Shown piece after piece: positions 6,090-13,441 of a DNA stretch of 13,441 bases (positions are counted from its first letter, which is position 1; the number at the start of each line of letters is the position of its first letter). The translations under genes and the position numbers were made by a program. Source of the stretch: Lachnospiraceae bacterium (GTDB lineage: Bacteria > Bacillota > Clostridia > Lachnospirales > Lachnospiraceae); the NCBI GenBank assembly GCA_024699395.1, contig JAILPU010000308.1, positions 1-13,441 on the forward strand. Direction: 5' to 3'. The notes under the pieces were generated by a model. It was given only the letters and a program-made list of their open reading frames with translations. It searched no databases and was not told where the DNA came from.

Positions 6090-6614
6090 GTGGAGAAAAT
6101 AGATCCCAAGGAAAAGTTAACTGAGCTGATGGATAAATACAAGGATCTTGTTTTCTCCGTATGCCTCAAAATGACAGGGGATTATTTTACCGCGGAAGAT
6201 ATCACCCAGGAAACCTTTATCTTAGCTTATAAGAATCTGAACAGATTTGACCCGAAAGCCGAAAAGGCGTGGCTGTGTAAGATAGCCGCAAATAAATGCA
6301 TTGACTTTTTAAGATCGGCGAAACAAAGAGAGGTGGCCACATCCGAGGAGGATTTGCCCAATGTGCCCACTGAATCGGGGGATGAGCCTCTTGATAAGTG
6401 CTTAAACAAAAACATTCTGGAGGAGCTTAAAGAAAACTGCAAAGCTCTTCCCGAACCCTATAACGAGGTGGCGACGGATTATTTTGTATATGAGCTTACG
6501 GCAAAGGAGATCGCCGAAAAGAGAGGAAGCCCTCTTAAAACCACTCAGACCCATATTTACAGGGCGAGGGAAATGCTTAAGAAAACCATAAGAAAGGAGG
6601 ACTTGCTTGCATGA
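6090..6614 (+). CDS. ECF-type RNA polymerase sigma factor
   Basis: This small sigma-70 family protein (174 residues with the GTG start) contains only regions 2 and 4. Region 2 spans roughly residues 15-80, with DLVFSVCLKMTGDYFTAEDI and an aromatic/basic segment CIDFLRSAKQR. Region 4 spans roughly 118-170, with YELTAKEIAEKRGSPLKTTQ as helix-turn-helix. It would direct RNA polymerase to a small regulon in response to a membrane or envelope signal sensed by its anti-sigma factor. The start is uncertain: GTG 6090 overlaps the perfect AGGAGG (6085-6090), although AAAGGA at 6077-6082 could serve it. An ATA codon at 6099 lies at ideal distance from AGGAGG. The stop overlaps the next gene by four bases (ATGA), indicating translational coupling. 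Confidence 0.9.
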   Translation: MEKIDPKEKLTELMDKYKDLVFSVCLKMTGDYFTAEDITQETFILAYKNLNRFDPKAEKAWLCKIAANKCIDFLRSAKQREVATSEEDLPNVPTESGDEPLDKCLNKNILEELKENCKALPEPYNEVATDYFVYELTAKEIAEKRGSPLKTTQTHIYRAREMLKKTIRKEDLLA

Positions 6615-7045
6615 TGAATGATTTGGAATATTTTGATGACGACGCTTTGGAAAAGCTTATAGCCGACGTGGAGCAAAACGATCTGGTGAAAGCTCCGGAC
6701 AGGATTACAAAAAATGTTTTGGCCGCAATAAATCTAAGAGAGAGAAAGATTGTTGAATACAGAAGATATCGTCTGCAGGTGGGACTGGCAATTGCGGCGG
6801 CAGCAGTTTTCTTACTTGTAACACCCGTAAGAATTGCCTTTGGTTCAAAAACTATGGTAAAACCCGAGGCACCTTCTAAGGAGAGTGTGCTTGAAGCAGA
6901 AAAGGTTCCTTCCAAGGAGAGCATCCTTGAAGCAAACAAAGTGCCTTCCAAAGAGGAAGTAATGGCTAAGTATGATAGGACGTTTTCGGATAATCTGAAA
7001 AGAAAAGTTGAAGATATTATTGTTTACATAGGAGGTTCAGAATGA
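6611..7045 (+). CDS. Single-pass membrane anti-sigma-like protein with 12-residue tandem repeats
   Basis: This is a 144-residue protein with an acidic N-terminal cytoplasmic part (1-50), one transmembrane helix (about 55-73, GLAIAAAAVFLLV) and an extracytoplasmic tail. Position immediately after an ECF sigma gene with an ATGA overlap is the classic place for an anti-sigma factor that holds the sigma at the membrane. No zinc-binding HxxxCxxC motif is present, so it is not a ZAS-type anti-sigma. Residues 88-120 carry a tandem repeat, PSKESVLEAEKV, PSKESILEANKV, PSKEEVMAKYD, encoded by 36-base units beginning at 6872, 6908 and 6944. AGGAGG lies 10 bases before ATG 6611. The last four bases overlap the next gene. 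The anti-sigma role comes from context and topology, with no sequence motif to prove it. Confidence 0.75.
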   Translation: MMNDLEYFDDDALEKLIADVEQNDLVKAPDRITKNVLAAINLRERKIVEYRRYRLQVGLAIAAAAVFLLVTPVRIAFGSKTMVKPEAPSKESVLEAEKVPSKESILEANKVPSKEEVMAKYDRTFSDNLKRKVEDIIVYIGGSE

Positions 7046-7608
7046 AACATACACATATGAAAAAGAACAAGTTTCTTACATTTGGCTGTTCTCTTTTACC
7101 CGGTGCGGCTGAAATGTACATGGGTTTTTTAAATAACGGTTTAAGTCTCTTGCTGGTATTTATGGCTGCGGTTCTTCTGTGTTGGGGATTTGGTGAAGTA
7201 TTCTGTTTGGCATTGTTCATAGTCTGGGTATACGGATTTTTCCACGCATGGAGCATCCGAAGTCTTGATGAGGAAAGTTTTAAAACCTCTGAGGATGTAT
7301 ATATATGGGAGGAATTTACCAACGGAAGAGATGTGGTATTTGACAAAAAGAAGGTGGAGAAGACCATTCCGGTTATATTGCTTCTTATGGGCTTTGGTAT
7401 TCTGTGGAACAGTTTTTCATATCTTATTTTGGATTTCATTCCCGATAATCTCTGGCATATTTTTTCTCCCATAATCACCCATTTGCCGGGAAATGTGTTT
7501 GCTGTGATATGTGTGGTTTTGGGATTTAAGTTGTTAAGAAATAAAAAGAAAGATATGGATAAAGAATGCGAGGAATTAAAAGATGGATGCGAATCTCAGA
7601 GTAAGTAA
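7042..7608 (+). CDS. Four-TM membrane protein of the sigma operon
   Basis: This 188-residue protein starts at ATG 7042, inside the stop of the anti-sigma-like gene, with AGGAGG six bases upstream. Predicted membrane segments are near 32-50, 51-70, 108-131 and 148-164. The N-terminus (KNKFLTFGCSLLPGAAEMYMGF) resembles the small membrane proteins with a PGAG-MY-G signature that often accompany sigma/anti-sigma pairs in Clostridia, somewhat like TM2-domain proteins. The C-terminus is a short charged tail. It may help sense or respond to membrane state together with the anti-sigma factor. The precise function is unknown. The stop TAA overlaps by one base the ATG of a short TraX-like remnant. Confidence 0.75.
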   Translation: MKHTHMKKNKFLTFGCSLLPGAAEMYMGFLNNGLSLLLVFMAAVLLCWGFGEVFCLALFIVWVYGFFHAWSIRSLDEESFKTSEDVYIWEEFTNGRDVVFDKKKVEKTIPVILLLMGFGILWNSFSYLILDFIPDNLWHIFSPIITHLPGNVFAVICVVLGFKLLRNKKKDMDKECEELKDGCESQSK

Positions 7609-7706
7609 TGAAGATACCAAACGATGCCTTCAGCAAGTATTTGTTCTATGTCATCTATCCCCTTCATATCTGGCTACTTGTGATCATTGATTCCATCCAC
7701 GGTTGA
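7608..7706 (+). pseudogene. TraX-like C-terminal remnant (32 codons)
   Basis: The frame begins with an ATG overlapping the previous stop (TAATG) and encodes MKIPNDAFSKYLFYVIYPLH followed by IWLLVIIDSIHG. The K-Y-x-F-Y-x-x-Y-P-x-H pattern followed by a hydrophobic helix resembles the end of TraX-family membrane proteins (acyltransferase-like), which often finish this way. Nothing corresponding to the rest of TraX, normally over 200 residues, lies upstream, so this looks like the residue of a deletion. It could instead be a translated small membrane peptide coupled to the sigma operon. Confidence 0.5.
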
Positions 7707-7906: not shown

Positions 7907-9550
7907 ATGGGAAAAAATAAGTCCAAGGCGCTTTTTTATATTATGCCGGTGGTTCTCTTGGGGACGGTTATTTTTATTCAGTTATGTACTTTGATTAAGC
8001 TACCTGAAAAGAGAGAATTGAATAATGTGACCCTTGCATCCTTTCCTGAGGAGAAATCTCTTAAGGCATTTATGGACGGTTCCTTTCAGAAACAGTTGGA
8101 CAGCTGGCTGGGAGATCATTTTTACGGACATACTAATGCCGTTATGGTTCACAATCAGGTGGATTACAGTATTTTTAAGGATGCCTCCGGAAATGTGGCA
8201 CAGGGTAAAGAGGGTTATCTCTACATCAAAGATCAGACTCCACTTTATGTCTCCGGGAAGAAGACCAATGACAATACATGGGATGACTATCTTTCTTATG
8301 CGGGAAAGCTTAAGAACCTACAGGATATTTTGAATGCTAATAACAAGGATTTTGTGCTTCTTCTCACACCCATTAAGGCGGAAATTTATCCCGATAAGCT
8401 GCCCTGGTATTTCAAGCTTCTTAATAAAAAATATTCCGATAAAGAAAATGCCATTCATGATACATTTGTAAGAGCCCTCAAGGAGTGCGGGGTTAACTAT
8501 TATGACGTTACCGACGACCTTAAGAAAATGCGTGATGAAGTGGATTTCGAAGTGTTTTCCAAAACAGGTCAGCACTGGACTCTTACTGCGGCGGCATATG
8601 AGATGAACAGTATTTTTGACAGGTTTGAAGATATGTCGGAGTTTACGAAGTATCCAAGGGTGGATGTCGTGGATGTCAACGACGGAATTTTTGCTATTGA
8701 TAAAGACCTTTTGGATATGCAGAATGTTTTTTGGTACAAAGAGGCGGATAGATACACAAAGCCTGTAGTGAAATATACCAAAAGTGACGACAGCATTTAT
8801 ATTTTCGGAACAAGCTACATTCATGAAATCTGGCACTCACTTTACGGCGTGGATGAAACCGGAAAGGACCTTGCTTTTAATTCCATAACCGCACAGCAGT
8901 ATTTTGTATCGGTCACAGATGTTTCCGAAAAGGGTGCAAACACCACATTTTTTTCAGAGGGAGAAGACCCTTACGATCTTGGGATAACAAGAAGGTTAAA
9001 GAATTCTTCACTTCTTTTGATGGAGCAGTGCGGTGCATTTGGTGTTACGGATCACATAGCGGGTATTAACACAAGATTTGTGGATTATCTGACCGGGGTT
9101 TTTGACGGTGAGGATTACAGCCTTACGGGAAATATGCTTCGGGACAAATCCTACACCGGTGATTTTGAACTTACCAACTTTGACGGGCCTGAGGAGTTGG
9201 GTAGATGGTCATTGGGAGACGAGTTGGGATTTACAATGCACGACAGTCTCTGTCAAAGTGATTCTGAAAAGATTCTTCTTTGCATCGATGCCCATTCTTT
9301 TTCACAGGACCGGGATGCCCAAATTTGGCTTAACGATACATTGATAGATACAGTCAAAGTTAAATGCGATTCCACTGAAAGCTTTTCTTTTGAATTGCCT
9401 ACAGATCTCTTAAAGGACAGGGATAATGTTGTTGCGATTAGACTGTCCGGTCACAGCGTATCACCGAAGGAGTTGGGGGAGGGTGATGACGAAAGAAGCC
9501 TTGGACTTTTTGTGGAAAATATGGAAATAATTTCATCCGGAGAAAGATAA
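7907..9550 (+). CDS. AlgX/AlgJ-like SGNH-fold protein, membrane anchored, with C-terminal beta-sandwich
   Basis: This 547-residue protein has an N-terminal membrane anchor (about 9-30), so the bulk faces outside. Residues about 60-330 follow the AlgX/AlgJ (DHHW) pattern: GKEGYLYI, TPIKAEIYPDKLP, YYDVTDDLKK, KTGQHWT and a nucleophile-type IFGTSY. H223 and S303 match the His and Ser of the SGNH triad. The Asp normally two residues before that His is G221. The C-terminal part (about 415-547) looks like a carbohydrate-binding beta-sandwich. Such proteins partner MBOAT acyltransferases in adding acyl groups to exopolysaccharides, as AlgX/AlgJ do with AlgI in alginate acetylation. No good ribosome binding site sits at normal distance from ATG 7907; AAGGA at 7884 is 18 bases away. 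The stop abuts the next ATG (TAAATG). Confidence 0.85.
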   Translation: MGKNKSKALFYIMPVVLLGTVIFIQLCTLIKLPEKRELNNVTLASFPEEKSLKAFMDGSFQKQLDSWLGDHFYGHTNAVMVHNQVDYSIFKDASGNVAQGKEGYLYIKDQTPLYVSGKKTNDNTWDDYLSYAGKLKNLQDILNANNKDFVLLLTPIKAEIYPDKLPWYFKLLNKKYSDKENAIHDTFVRALKECGVNYYDVTDDLKKMRDEVDFEVFSKTGQHWTLTAAAYEMNSIFDRFEDMSEFTKYPRVDVVDVNDGIFAIDKDLLDMQNVFWYKEADRYTKPVVKYTKSDDSIYIFGTSYIHEIWHSLYGVDETGKDLAFNSITAQQYFVSVTDVSEKGANTTFFSEGEDPYDLGITRRLKNSSLLLMEQCGAFGVTDHIAGINTRFVDYLTGVFDGEDYSLTGNMLRDKSYTGDFELTNFDGPEELGRWSLGDELGFTMHDSLCQSDSEKILLCIDAHSFSQDRDAQIWLNDTLIDTVKVKCDSTESFSFELPTDLLKDRDNVVAIRLSGHSVSPKELGEGDDERSLGLFVENMEIISSGER

Positions 9551-11032
9551 ATGAGTTTTACGTCCGTATCATTTCTGCTTTTCTTATTTCCCGCAGGAAT
9601 CATACTTAATTATTTTACCAAAAAAGAATACAGAGTTTACATACTTACCGCTTTGTCGGTGCTGTTTTATGCATGGAGCGGCGTGGGCTTTCTCATACTT
9701 TTGACGGTGTCGGCTCTGTTGGCGTTTGTTTCGGGTATCGCCCTTGAGAAAGCAAAGAAGGTTTCTTTGCGAAGGGGAATACTGGCATTGACGCTTATTT
9801 ACAATATCGGTGTACTTTTCGGATATAAGTATCTTTTTACTGTTTTTCCGGGCTTTTCACAGAGACTGGCAAGGGTTTTTCATATTGATGGAAATCTTCT
9901 TAACAACATAGTGATTCCCTTGGGAATTTCCTTTTACACCTTTTCGATTTTATCCTATGTGATTGATGTTTATATCGAAAAATGCGAAGCCCGGAAAAAT
10001 TTTGTAAGGCTTTATTTGTATGTGATATTTTTCCCCAAGATAATACAGGGACCCATCACAAGATATACCGATTTTATGGAGCAACTCGACAATAATGAAA
10101 CCGGGATAGTCCTTATGGATGAGGGCTTTGAGCGTTTTATTAAGGGTATGGTTAAGAAGGTTTTGATAGCGGACCGGCTTTACAATATCGTGTCCTATCC
10201 CTTTGATAAAATAAGAAATGTAGGCACAATTCCTGCCTGGATCGGTATCATAACCTATCTTCTTCAGCTTTATTTTGATTTTTCGGGATACAGCGATATG
10301 GCCATCGGTCTGGGTAATATGCTGGGATTCAGGTTGCCGGAAAACTTCGATCACCCTTATTTGTCGGAGACGGTGTCGGAATATTGGAGAAGGTTTCATA
10401 TTACCTTGGGTGAGTGGTTCAGAGATTATGTTTATACGCCGGTTTCCAGAGTGCTTATCTGGAATGAAAAAATAAAGAGTTCCAAGAATCCCAGGCTTGT
10501 GTGCGATATTATTTCCCTTTTGTGCGTTTGGGTTCTTACGGGAATCTGGCACGGCGCGGGATTAAAATTTTTACTGTGGGGATTGTGGTATTTTGTTTTC
10601 ATAAGTTTTGAGAGAATAAGAGACGATCGCAGGAAAAAGATACGTAAGAAAAAGGGAATAAAGGGCAGTAAGAAAACTGTTCTTCAGTCAGTCTCGGACA
10701 GGCTTGTCACTGTTATTGCCACGGTATTCGGCTATGTGATATTCAGGGCGTCTTCCTTAAAGGATGCGCTTATCTACTGGTACAGGCTTGTGAAGTGGGA
10801 TACACGTGACGGCTGGGTATTTTTGGCTCGTTTCGATAACTATGTGATTTTTGCCGTTTTGATGGGGATTGTTTTTTCATTCCCGATTTACGGATTTATT
10901 AAGAAAAACGTATTTGAAAAAAATGATGTTACAAGGATTCTTCACAGAGTGATCCTTATAATATTTGCTGTCATAACTTTCTGCTATGCAGTGGGTTCGG
11001 GAAGCAGTGCGTTTTTGTATGAGGTTTTTTAA
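9551..11032 (+). CDS. MBOAT family O-acyltransferase (AlgI/DltB-like)
   Basis: This is a 493-residue polytopic membrane protein. MBOAT signatures are LGISFYTFSILSYVIDVY, PKIIQGPITRY, DFSGYSDMAIG (D243), a conserved segment EYWRRFHITLGEWFRDYVY (H283) and TGIWHGAG with the invariant catalytic-core His at H334. The length and motif order match AlgI and DltB. Such enzymes take an acyl group from a cytoplasmic carrier and pass it across the membrane to a polymer, helped by an SGNH partner, here the gene just upstream. ATG 9551 follows the previous stop immediately, and the GGAG ribosome binding site lies inside the upstream gene. The downstream FkbH-like gene also begins directly after this stop, so the three are tightly co-translated. 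The acyl donor is probably the ACP encoded at 12975. Confidence 0.93.
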   Translation: MSFTSVSFLLFLFPAGIILNYFTKKEYRVYILTALSVLFYAWSGVGFLILLTVSALLAFVSGIALEKAKKVSLRRGILALTLIYNIGVLFGYKYLFTVFPGFSQRLARVFHIDGNLLNNIVIPLGISFYTFSILSYVIDVYIEKCEARKNFVRLYLYVIFFPKIIQGPITRYTDFMEQLDNNETGIVLMDEGFERFIKGMVKKVLIADRLYNIVSYPFDKIRNVGTIPAWIGIITYLLQLYFDFSGYSDMAIGLGNMLGFRLPENFDHPYLSETVSEYWRRFHITLGEWFRDYVYTPVSRVLIWNEKIKSSKNPRLVCDIISLLCVWVLTGIWHGAGLKFLLWGLWYFVFISFERIRDDRRKKIRKKKGIKGSKKTVLQSVSDRLVTVIATVFGYVIFRASSLKDALIYWYRLVKWDTRDGWVFLARFDNYVIFAVLMGIVFSFPIYGFIKKNVFEKNDVTRILHRVILIIFAVITFCYAVGSGSSAFLYEVF

Positions 11033-12766
11033 ATGGATAACAGTATCTGTTCTTTCAGAGATTTGCAGAAACTGTCACGTAAAGAAGTGGCGGGACCCGG
11101 GGTAAAGATTGCGGTTTTGGGGAACTGTTCCACACAGTTTCTTTCCCAGGCCATAAACGGCGCTGTCAAAAACAGGGGCTTTAATGCATCTGTGTTTGAT
11201 GCGGACTACAATCAGATTGAAGCTCAGCTTTTGGACAGGGAAAGCGAATTGTTTGCCTTTGAACCTGACTTTATTGTGTTGTGGCTTTCAACGGAAAAAC
11301 TTTACGAAGAGTTTTTGGATGAAGATGCGGGCAAAAGACCTTCCTTTGCCGAAAGATATATGGCAAAGATTCTTCGCTATTGGGAGCTTGCGGGAAAGAA
11401 TTCAAAGGCAAAGATTTTACAGTTTAATTTTACGGAAACTGAGGATAAGTGTCTGGGCAATTATTCCGTAAAGGTTACCTCCTCATTTTCCTATCAGATA
11501 AGAAAATTAAATTTTATACTTGAAGAGAGCATGGCCGAAAATGCCAATGTGTTTCCTGTGGATATACTTTCTCTTCAGATAAGGCTTGGCAGGGATAAAT
11601 TCGGGGATGCGCCTCTTTATTACAATGCCAAGATGACGGTTTCCATTAACAGCCTCCCCTACATTGCCAAGGAGGTTGCGGGGATTATTGCGGCGACCAA
11701 GGGAAGTATTAAAAAGTGCGTGATCATGGATCTTGACAATACCCTTTGGGGCGGCGTTATCGGAGATGACGGCCTTGGGGGAATTGAGATCGGCGAGCTG
11801 GGACAGGGACATTGTTTTTCCAATCTTCAAAGGTGGCTTAAGCAGTTGAAACAGTGCGGCATTATCCTTGCGGTATGCAGTAAGAACAATGAGGAGACGG
11901 CTAAGGAACCCTTTGAAAAACATGAAGATATGATATTGAAGCTAGAAGATATCTCGGTGTTTGTGGCTAACTGGGAGGACAAGGCTTCCAATATTAAACT
12001 GATACAAAAGACCCTTAATATCGGAATGGATTCCATTGTCTTTTTGGATGACAATCCCTTTGAGAGAAATCTTGTGAGGGAAATGATACCGGAGATTACG
12101 GTGCCGGAACTTCCCGAGGACCCGGCGCTTTATCTTGATTTTCTTCAGAAGGAGAATCTTTTTGAAAACATAGCCTTCTGTGGGGAGAGTGCCGACAGAA
12201 CAAAGCAGTACAGGGCTGAGTTTGAGAGGAAAAAGGCAGAGCTTTCCTATGAATCCATTGACGAGTATTTAAAGAGTCTTAAGATGGTAGGAAGGGCAAG
12301 GGAATTTGAAGAGGTAAGATTCCAAAGGATTGCAGAACTTACCCAGAGGTCCAATCAGTTTAACTTACGAACGGTGCGCTATACCAAAGGAGACATTGAG
12401 AGGATTTCAAAGGACGATTCCTATATTACTTTGTATTACACTTTGAAAGACAAGTTCGGTGACCATGGTCTTGTGTCGGTGGTTATCTTAAAAAAGATTG
12501 ATGAAACTTCGGTATTTGTGGATACCTGGCTTATGAGCTGCAGAGTTCTTAAGAGAGGTATGGAGGAGTTTATCGTTAACACCCTTGTGGACAGGGTAAA
12601 GGAAAAAGGCTTTAAGTTAATTGAGGCCCAGTATATTCCCACTCCCAAAAACAAGATGGTGGAGCATATTTACGACAGAATGGGCTTTACCCCTGTGGGA
12701 GAGGGTAACTACAGGCTTAATGTAGAGGATTATATATATAAGCCAAACTTTATCGAGACGGAGTAG
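11033..12766 (+). CDS. FkbH-like HAD-IIIC enzyme (putative glyceryl-ACP synthase) with GNAT-like C-terminus
   Basis: This 577-residue three-part protein begins with an SGNH-like domain (about 20-210; VLGNCSTQFL near the start). The HAD-IIIC domain starts at about 228 with motif I D233-L-D235-N-T and later VFLDDNPFERN (D339, D340). A GNAT-like region follows at about 430-570, ending in YDRMGFTPVGEGNYRLN. FkbH-family enzymes take glycerate from 1,3-bisphosphoglycerate and place it as a glyceryl thioester on an ACP, removing the phosphate with the HAD domain. That role is known from methoxymalonyl-ACP and tetronate pathways. Here the enzyme follows an MBOAT gene with no gap and precedes an ACP gene, which suggests it loads that carrier for membrane-level acyl transfer. 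The acyl group is inferred. Some HAD-IIIC proteins have other or unknown substrates. Confidence 0.88.
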   Translation: MDNSICSFRDLQKLSRKEVAGPGVKIAVLGNCSTQFLSQAINGAVKNRGFNASVFDADYNQIEAQLLDRESELFAFEPDFIVLWLSTEKLYEEFLDEDAGKRPSFAERYMAKILRYWELAGKNSKAKILQFNFTETEDKCLGNYSVKVTSSFSYQIRKLNFILEESMAENANVFPVDILSLQIRLGRDKFGDAPLYYNAKMTVSINSLPYIAKEVAGIIAATKGSIKKCVIMDLDNTLWGGVIGDDGLGGIEIGELGQGHCFSNLQRWLKQLKQCGIILAVCSKNNEETAKEPFEKHEDMILKLEDISVFVANWEDKASNIKLIQKTLNIGMDSIVFLDDNPFERNLVREMIPEITVPELPEDPALYLDFLQKENLFENIAFCGESADRTKQYRAEFERKKAELSYESIDEYLKSLKMVGRAREFEEVRFQRIAELTQRSNQFNLRTVRYTKGDIERISKDDSYITLYYTLKDKFGDHGLVSVVILKKIDETSVFVDTWLMSCRVLKRGMEEFIVNTLVDRVKEKGFKLIEAQYIPTPKNKMVEHIYDRMGFTPVGEGNYRLNVEDYIYKPNFIETE

Positions 12767-12917
12767 TCGGGTATTATATATTGGGGGCACGAAAACGACA
12801 GATGCATTATTCCATACCCAATCGACGACAAATTTTGAAAAATTGTGCGAGAATCAGAGGATTAGTATGTTAACCGGATGTGCCGCAGGAAATCACGTGG
12901 TGGCAATGATAACATAA
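12767..12917 (+). pseudogene. Possible decayed coding fragment between FkbH-like and ACP genes
   Basis: The 208 bp between the FkbH-like gene and the ACP contain a frame open to a TAA at 12915-12917. It reads LYIGGTKTTDALFHTQSTTN, then FEKLCENQRISM and LTGCAAGNHVVAMIT. The composition looks like a protein but there is no start codon with a ribosome binding site; the only in-frame ATGs are at 12867 and 12906. The frame directly after the FkbH stop also reads plausibly (IIYWGHENDRCIIPYPIDDKF). I cannot name a family. It may be the end of a deleted gene, and it may equally be chance. Confidence 0.25.
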
Positions 12918-12920
12918 TTA

Positions 12921-12949
12921 ATGAAAAACAACTCAAAACAATATATGAT
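12921..12949 (+). promoter_or_regulatory. Weak candidate promoter for the ACP gene
   Basis: TATGAT (12944-12949) lies 17 bases after ATGAAA (12921-12926), a partial match to TTGACA. If used, it would give the ACP and lipoyl genes their own transcription as well as read-through from the FkbH gene. Confidence 0.35.
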
Positions 12950-12974
12950 GTGTAAAAAATAAAAGGAGAAAAAC

Positions 12975-13220
12975 ATGGACAGAGCACAGGCTTATGAAAA
13001 AGTTACGGAGATATTCAGAGATATATTTGAGGACGATGAGATTGTATTAAGTGATGAGACCACCGCAAAAGATATCGAGGGATGGGACAGCCTTACACAT
13101 CTTAGTCTTATAAATGAAATAGAGATGGCTTTTGATATAAGATTCAAGCTTGCAGAGGTTCAGAAATCCAAGAATGTGGGTGAACTTATCACAGCTCTTT
13201 TAAGTCACGTGGGAGAATAA
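12975..13220 (+). CDS. Acyl carrier protein
   Basis: This 81-residue acidic helical protein has the carrier-protein signature GWDSLTHLSL, with S39 as the expected 4'-phosphopantetheine attachment site. The sequence resembles stand-alone carriers of secondary pathways and DltC-like proteins more than the housekeeping fatty-acid ACP, which usually reads DSLDxVEL. AAAGGAG precedes the ATG by about six bases. Its place after an FkbH-like loader and an MBOAT gene suggests that it carries the acyl group handed to the membrane enzyme. A GcvH-like gene starts four bases after its stop, so the two are probably translated together. Confidence 0.92.
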   Translation: MDRAQAYEKVTEIFRDIFEDDEIVLSDETTAKDIEGWDSLTHLSLINEIEMAFDIRFKLAEVQKSKNVGELITALLSHVGE

Positions 13221-13224
13221 TGAT

Positions 13225-13441
13225 ATGAGTATAGCTTATTCTAAGGAACATATCTGGGTGAAAGAAGAAGATGGCGTGGCTCTTTTGGGACTTTCCGAGT
13301 ATGCCGTTACAAAGCTTAAAGCTATTATGTTTTTAGACCTCCCTGAGGAGGGGGACGAAGTTGATATAGACTCCAAATTCGGAGATGTGGAGAGTAAAAA
13401 GACGGTTTCTGACATGATTTCCCCTGTAACCGGAGTGGTTA
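13225..13441 (+). CDS. GcvH-like lipoyl carrier protein (partial, runs off the window)
   Basis: The first 72 codons are present. They align along their length with the glycine cleavage H protein: YSKEHIWV at the start, VALLGLSEYAVTKLKAIMFL, LPEEGDEV, FGDVESKKTVSDM and SPVTGVV. K59, the second Lys of ESKK, corresponds to the lipoylated Lys of ESVKAASD. ATG 13225 follows GGGAG with a nine-base gap. H proteins carry methylamine or other groups on a swinging lipoyl arm. Finding one beside an ACP and FkbH-like enzyme, with no P- or T-protein gene visible in the window, suggests a specialised lipoyl carrier rather than the housekeeping glycine cleavage component. The downstream genes, outside the window, would decide this. 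Confidence 0.88.
   Translation, partial: MSIAYSKEHIWVKEEDGVALLGLSEYAVTKLKAIMFLDLPEEGDEVDIDSKFGDVESKKTVSDMISPVTGVV

Follow-up and report, generated by a model that had tools for sequence, protein, structure and literature searches.

Organization of the operon

The window analysed here, a 13,441-nucleotide stretch of DNA from a gut bacterium of the Lachnospiraceae, is the entire contig C215 of a metagenome-assembled genome (MAG; G000) that is 76% complete, and the operon described below may therefore extend past it. Five genes follow one another on the forward strand: an SGNH-like protein gene (7907–9550, 547 amino acids), an MBOAT gene (9551–11032, 493 amino acids), an FkbH-like gene (11033–12766, 577 amino acids), a gene for an acyl carrier protein (ACP; 12975–13220, 81 amino acids) and a GcvH-type lipoyl carrier gene cut by the contig end (13225–13441). 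There are no bases between the SGNH stop codon and the MBOAT ATG, nor between the MBOAT stop codon and the FkbH ATG. FkbH and ACP are spaced by 208 bases and ACP and GcvH by 4 bases, and the GcvH frame runs open to the contig end at 13441. The first four genes had been named in a preliminary description of this DNA and proved to be real, with their families matched by profiles; the fifth was absent from that description. We propose that these genes probably constitute a Dlt-like surface acylation operon, in which the carrier is loaded by FkbH and not by an ATP-dependent ligase.

The FkbH-like protein matched FkbH_N (PF21211; 220.8 bits, cut-off 27) and the TIGR01686 FkbH model (308.1 bits, cut-off 146.65). 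It consists of a GDSL-fold N-terminus, a HAD-IIIC phosphatase and a GNAT-fold C-terminus. HAD motif I (DLDNT with Asp233, Asp235 and Thr237; 11729–11743, forward strand) and Cys503 in SCRV (12539–12541, forward strand), which we take to be the candidate glyceryl-thioester cysteine, were invariant in all 120 rows of an alignment of 101 distinct sequences, as were S283, K317, D339 and D340. The sequence features expected of a glyceryl-ACP synthase (FkbH domain, HAD motifs, conserved Cys) were present. The ACP is a stand-alone PP-binding protein (PF00550; 29 bits, cut-off 20.8) for which 315 relatives were found; its Ser39 in WDSL (13089–13091, forward strand) is the expected phosphopantetheine site.

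The MBOAT (PF03062; 77.1 bits, cut-off 27) matched the DltB structures 8jem and 6bug (E < 1e-26). Its C-terminal FLYEVF (11012–11029, forward strand) fits the acyl-shuttle motif FXYXXF; in PatA and DltX the acyl group is borne by its Tyr, according to the available part of PMC12148441. Among 63 distinct MBOATs longer than 420 amino acids in the examined loci (64 sequences), WHG with the conserved His was found in all 63 and FXYXXF in 60, the exceptions being L061 (cut by a contig end), L068 (with the near-motif LMYGNF) and L089. At the inner face of the membrane, the MBOAT is predicted to accept the acyl group carried by the ACP, which it would then pass outward. Adjoining it, as MBOAT–SGNH pairs require, is the membrane-anchored SGNH-fold partner (ALGX/SGNH, PF16822; 36.7 bits, cut-off 26.5). 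This protein is of the AlgX/PatB1 type and has a C-terminal beta-sandwich resembling a carbohydrate-binding module; the best matches of its predicted structure model were PatB1, AlgJ, AlgX and a DHHW protein. It is predicted to be the last transferase onto the surface polymer. His223 in GQHW (8573–8575) and Ser303 in GTS (8813–8815; both forward strand), the candidate nucleophile, were invariant in 11/11 aligned members.

The GcvH-type protein (PF01597; 64.4 bits) has an intact ESKKTVSD motif with Lys59 as the expected lipoylation site (13399–13401, forward strand). Glycine cleavage was rejected as its role, since the glycine-cleavage P-protein was searched for without a match in two genomes that harbour the operon's GcvH (G035 and G156, each 99% complete), which leaves GcvH without its ordinary job there. 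The control of this search was positive in 10 of 14 genomes. In the MAG of the window, the best P-protein match scored 23.1 bits, under the cut-off of 26.

Recurrence of the FkbH–ACP–MBOAT linkage

The preliminary description had proposed a neighbourhood search as a check, and the linkage recurred. Peptide patterns of the window's own FkbH, which favour near kin, yielded 71 FkbH loci on 71 contigs. An ACP lay within 2.5 kb of FkbH in 62 of them, a same-strand MBOAT within 10 kb in 48 and an SGNH-like gene was present in 41, a count that for the s15, s16, s34 and s67 types rests on position and on in-house profiles from the same loci (these representatives mostly had no Pfam match, some giving weak GDSL or DltD matches). 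In the 37 loci flanked by 5 kb or more on each side, the counts were 33 (ACP), 26 (MBOAT) and 22 (SGNH-like). By chance, approximately 0.028 MBOATs would be expected per 20 kb (about 3%), based on 263 MBOATs in 188.6 Mb from 61 genomes of the genus. The linkage exceeds chance, with the qualification that a binomial comparison assumes independent loci, which the FkbH loci are not. MBOAT was located before FkbH in some loci and after it in others; functional coupling is therefore favoured over one inherited block. The MBOAT-linked loci belonged to Bacillota and, judging by record titles, to a few other phyla.

Putative tailoring genes in related loci

In L033, L035 and L036, FkbH and ACP were followed by genes for GcvH, dihydrolipoyl dehydrogenase (DLD), lipoate ligase (LplA), HGDb, HGDa and an activase (together, the six-gene set), and then by MBOAT. 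GcvH began 3 bases past ACP in L033 and overlapped the ACP end in L035, and MBOAT began 3 bases past the activase in L035 and L036, with one extra gene between the two in L033. The order was complete except for DLD in L042, and in L038 MBOAT preceded FkbH while ACP followed the activase. In G035, a member of the window's genus, FkbH, ACP and GcvH precede the start of a DLD gene, of which 51 residues could be matched before the contig ends. Since GcvH follows ACP in the window, and relatives add DLD, LplA, the HGD pair, the activase and then MBOAT, this arrangement suggests that export is preceded by modification of the carrier-bound acyl group.

A natural presence/absence pair was found in L035 and L049, which share the same gene order and are 94.6% (FkbH), 93.6% (ACP), 90.3% (MBOAT) and 81.5% (SGNH-position protein) identical. 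The six genes (approximately 5.2 kb) lie between ACP and MBOAT in L035 only. A remnant of the set was sought in the ACP–MBOAT spacer of L049, where a 24-residue peptide matched nothing notable among the local open reading frames (ORFs).

Pfam and NCBIfam models identified the HGD-D alpha and beta subunits and the ATPase activase in L036 and L038. HGDa C85, C118 and C336 and HGDb C65 and C273 align with cysteines of 2-hydroxyisocaproyl-CoA dehydratase (3o3m), and further cysteines (five in HGDa, one in HGDb) were invariant in 9/9 loci; a double-cubane role is one conceivable reading of the additional HGDa cysteines. In this enzyme family, as described in the accessible sections of PMC11574389, a ketyl radical is made and the 2-hydroxyl expelled, resulting in an enoxy radical.

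Other relatives carried other genes in place of this set. Across 93 rows, which include two regions twice (L038/L140, from one MAG, and L059/L112), 34 lacked MBOAT; of those with MBOAT, 30 had none of the sets sought, 13 had MaoC and SDR, seven had TPP enzymes and MaoC, two had MaoC only and seven had GcvH/HGD genes (including the window and one region twice). The FkbH closest to that of the window by identity (L088, 65%) was accompanied by MBOAT and SGNH but by none of the tailoring sets. On an FkbH tree, built with a quick method, showing several long branches and leaving out L140, L112 and FkbH sequences shorter than 480 residues, the contexts required 31 changes over six groups, compared with a shuffled mean of 51.6. 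The contexts are partly clustered, yet were often gained or lost, a pattern that fits a single loader product entering different tailoring steps. By the known chemistry of the bryostatin loading module, MaoC and SDR would convert glyceryl-ACP to pyruvyl- and lactyl-ACP. In L118 (10944–13454) and L123 (11090–13550), two-subunit transketolase-like TPP enzymes separate FkbH from ACP, and MBOAT lies downstream; this suggests that another acyl group is made there from a carrier-bound acid.

Proposed acylation route

We hypothesize that FkbH would transfer glycerate from 1,3-bisphosphoglycerate to the ACP, forming glyceryl-ACP. The carrier-bound acid would then probably be altered by the lipoyl protein GcvH with its reductase DLD and ligase LplA, and by the HGD pair, which resembles radical 2-hydroxyacyl dehydratases and has an ATP-driven activase; GcvH is the only member of this group in the window. 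The acyl group would cross the membrane on the Tyr of the MBOAT's own C-terminal FLYEVF, and the SGNH protein would deposit it on a surface polysaccharide. The identity of the acyl groups and of the acceptor is inferred, as is the presence of the remaining set genes beyond the end of the contig.

A more specific role for the six-gene set, which we regard as speculative and rather unlikely, is that of a lipoyl-coupled radical dehydroxylase with carrier-bound hydroxyacids as substrates, giving 3-hydroxypropionyl-ACP and then a surface 3-hydroxypropionyl group. Glyceryl-ACP is a 2-hydroxyacyl thioester. The activase would give the HGD pair one electron, and the ketyl radical of glyceryl-ACP would drop its 2-hydroxyl. 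The dihydrolipoyl arm of GcvH would supply hydrogen, like the dithiol of ribonucleotide reductase, and DLD would re-reduce the arm with NADH. A lipoyl dithiol beside a 2-hydroxyacyl dehydratase tentatively suggests a reductive version of the enzyme. MBOAT and SGNH would then place the 3-hydroxypropionyl group on the cell surface, and the MaoC and SDR of other relatives would make a lactyl group from the same glyceryl-ACP.

The preliminary description had predicted an FkbH-loaded, ACP-dependent MBOAT/SGNH route, and this part is supported by the recurrent linkage, the FkbH catalytic positions, the MBOAT shuttle motif and the PatB1/AlgJ/AlgX-like SGNH model. Its further prediction was a glycerate-derived group on a surface polymer; the group transferred may not be glycerate itself, since GcvH and the tailoring genes suggest alteration.

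Evidence against the route and alternative explanations

Several observations weigh against the FkbH-loaded route with tailoring on the carrier. The Asp of the usual DxH motif is replaced by Gly221 in the SGNH protein (11/11 members), although another Asp may complete the Ser-His-Asp triad. MBOAT was missing from the DNA examined in 23 of the 71 FkbH loci and in 11 of the 37 loci that had flanks of 5 kb or more on each side. No HGD-D gene was found in the MAG of the window (76% complete) or in G035 (99% complete), where the contigs break at GcvH/DLD. We rejected the contig break as a sign of the set's absence, because G035 has a truncated DLD whose missing part is not found elsewhere in that genome either. 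HGDb matches with E ≤ 1e-25 came from five genomes (3/397 of the family, 2/391 of the class), and a search in 99 relatives gave weak matches at most (best 6.9e-11). FkbH lay beside HGDb in only one of the five HGDb genomes (G156, the MAG of L038). In G366 (97% complete), the HGD genes were beside MBOAT and the genome had no FkbH match; in G411, G683 and G624, neither FkbH nor MBOAT was beside HGDb in the DNA examined, with FkbH genes elsewhere in G411 and all six genes together, in a different order, in G624. Lipoyl/HGD genes with no FkbH or MBOAT nearby were also observed in L141 (8199–13444, six genes), L154 (5540–10863, six genes; aligned HGDb Cys kept) and L153 (9785–13019, four genes). 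Since it is found without FkbH or MBOAT alongside, the set forms an independent module, possibly with another function.

These occurrences bear on the strongest alternative, which we consider unlikely but worth weighing: glyceryl-ACP would go straight to MBOAT, and GcvH and its partners would serve an unrelated function on a shared transcript. Such plain transfer is favoured by the 30 rows in which MBOAT and FkbH occur without any of the tailoring sets sought, by L049, which lacks the set beside a 90% identical MBOAT, and by the sets that stand alone in L141 and L154. The gene junctions argue the other way, with GcvH immediately behind ACP in the window, L033 and L035 and MBOAT immediately behind the activase in L035 and L036, as does the lack of a P-protein in G035 and G156.

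An improbable alternative is that ACP and FkbH act in soluble sugar acylation, while the SGNH–MBOAT pair uses acetyl-CoA like PatAB and AlgIJX. The parallel is a clade of seven FkbH proteins linked to NeuA-like (CMP-sugar) genes (L124–L130), all with ACP and none with MBOAT in the DNA examined, a contrast to the MBOAT-linked loci that speaks for our proposal. The window's own genome holds one member, a second FkbH–ACP pair (L130, 245–2871; contig C65) beside CMP-sugar transferase-like and GNAT-like genes, with no MBOAT in the 10.5 kb examined; it perhaps serves the soluble acylation of a sialic-acid-like sugar. Two close FkbH relatives (L045 and L046) were also in a NeuA-type context. The contrast between NeuA-like and MBOAT contexts is limited to this clade and does not extend to every such locus, because, of all 13 loci where a NeuA-like gene lay within 10 kb, 3 had MBOAT, a further point against our proposal. 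Soluble acylation fits poorly with the zero-base junctions from SGNH through FkbH, with MBOAT linkage in 48/71 loci on either side of FkbH and with the visible part of the operon, which has no separate GNAT gene. The preliminary description had named an ACP serving only a soluble pathway encoded downstream as grounds for refutation; in L033, L035 and L036 this does not apply, as the soluble genes there themselves precede MBOAT.

A divergent Dlt operon carrying D-alanine, with FkbH doing something else, is very improbable: the distant DltB likeness of the MBOAT (DltB structures; 168.6 bits against the DltB equivalog model) and the weak DltC match of the ACP (20.6 bits) point to it, but both scores lie far under the curated thresholds of 375 bits (DltB) and 68 bits (DltC), by which a true Dlt system was rejected, the SGNH partner is AlgX/PatB1-like and no DltA-type adenylation-domain gene was found among the genes of the window, where the contig ends inside the operon.

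Other features of the window

Directly upstream of the operon (6090–7608) are three genes, the first of which encodes an ECF-type sigma factor (PF04542; 64.1 bits), followed by a 144-amino-acid gene and a 188-amino-acid protein, neither with a Pfam match. The 144-amino-acid gene may encode the anti-sigma factor, and the region is a possible regulator of the operon. Between the 188-amino-acid gene and the SGNH gene (7608–7706), where there was no forward-strand ORF of at least 60 amino acids, a short forward frame read by eye (MKIPNDAFSKYLFYVIYPLHIW...) looks like a remnant of a membrane protein. Farther upstream, an adenylosuccinate synthetase-like protein (1222–2403) scored 78.6 bits against an equivalog cut-off of 402 and is, because of this low score, probably not the housekeeping enzyme; a 335-amino-acid protein without a family match adjoins it.

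Significance and comparison with known systems

If the FkbH-loaded route is correct, the operon would represent a second carrier-dependent MBOAT/SGNH class, supplied by glycolysis with no ligase that spends ATP, and the interchangeable tailoring sets would allow the acyl groups on a cell surface to be predicted from the genome. If the dehydroxylase role also holds, one loader would feed a family of surface acyl groups from a glycolytic intermediate. The association of a GcvH that works without glycine cleavage with a radical dehydratase is puzzling in itself. A literature search, with most subscription journals outside its coverage, found nothing on the FkbH–ACP–MBOAT system itself or on GcvH with a radical dehydratase apart from glycine cleavage.

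The alpha/beta pair of the window's relatives resembles HadBC and the benzoyl-CoA reductase relatives in its aligned cysteines and activase. It differs from HadBC-type dehydratases in being encoded with GcvH, DLD and LplA, in the five extra HGDa cysteines and in its predicted carrier-bound substrate. With the FkbH synthases of tetronate and methoxymalonyl-ACP pathways, the operon shares FkbH, a stand-alone ACP and the conserved catalytic positions, whereas a membrane export pair takes the place of the polyketide synthase. In the FkbH pathways covered by the available part of PMC7489565, glyceryl-ACP is taken directly or tailored on the carrier.

The MBOAT C-terminal FXYXXF and the SGNH partner fold (like PatB1, AlgJ and AlgX) are shared with PatA/PatB, PatA1/PatB1 and AlgI/AlgJ/AlgX. 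Such O-acetylation pairs use acyl-CoA donors and no carrier protein, whereas Dlt needs a carrier, as far as the available part of PMC12148441 describes; the operon differs from the pairs in having FkbH and ACP. Like Dlt (DltA, DltB, DltC, DltD and DltX, as described in the same part of that source), it has an MBOAT and an SGNH-fold partner, and would use a carrier thioester donor and a Tyr acyl shuttle. Unlike Dlt, it has an FkbH loader in place of the adenylating ligase, a shuttle motif fused to the MBOAT, an AlgX/PatB1-type partner, and GcvH and (in relatives) tailoring enzymes within the operon. The operon would combine Dlt-like and PatAB-like working, and the set of tailoring enzymes at its end is possibly novel.

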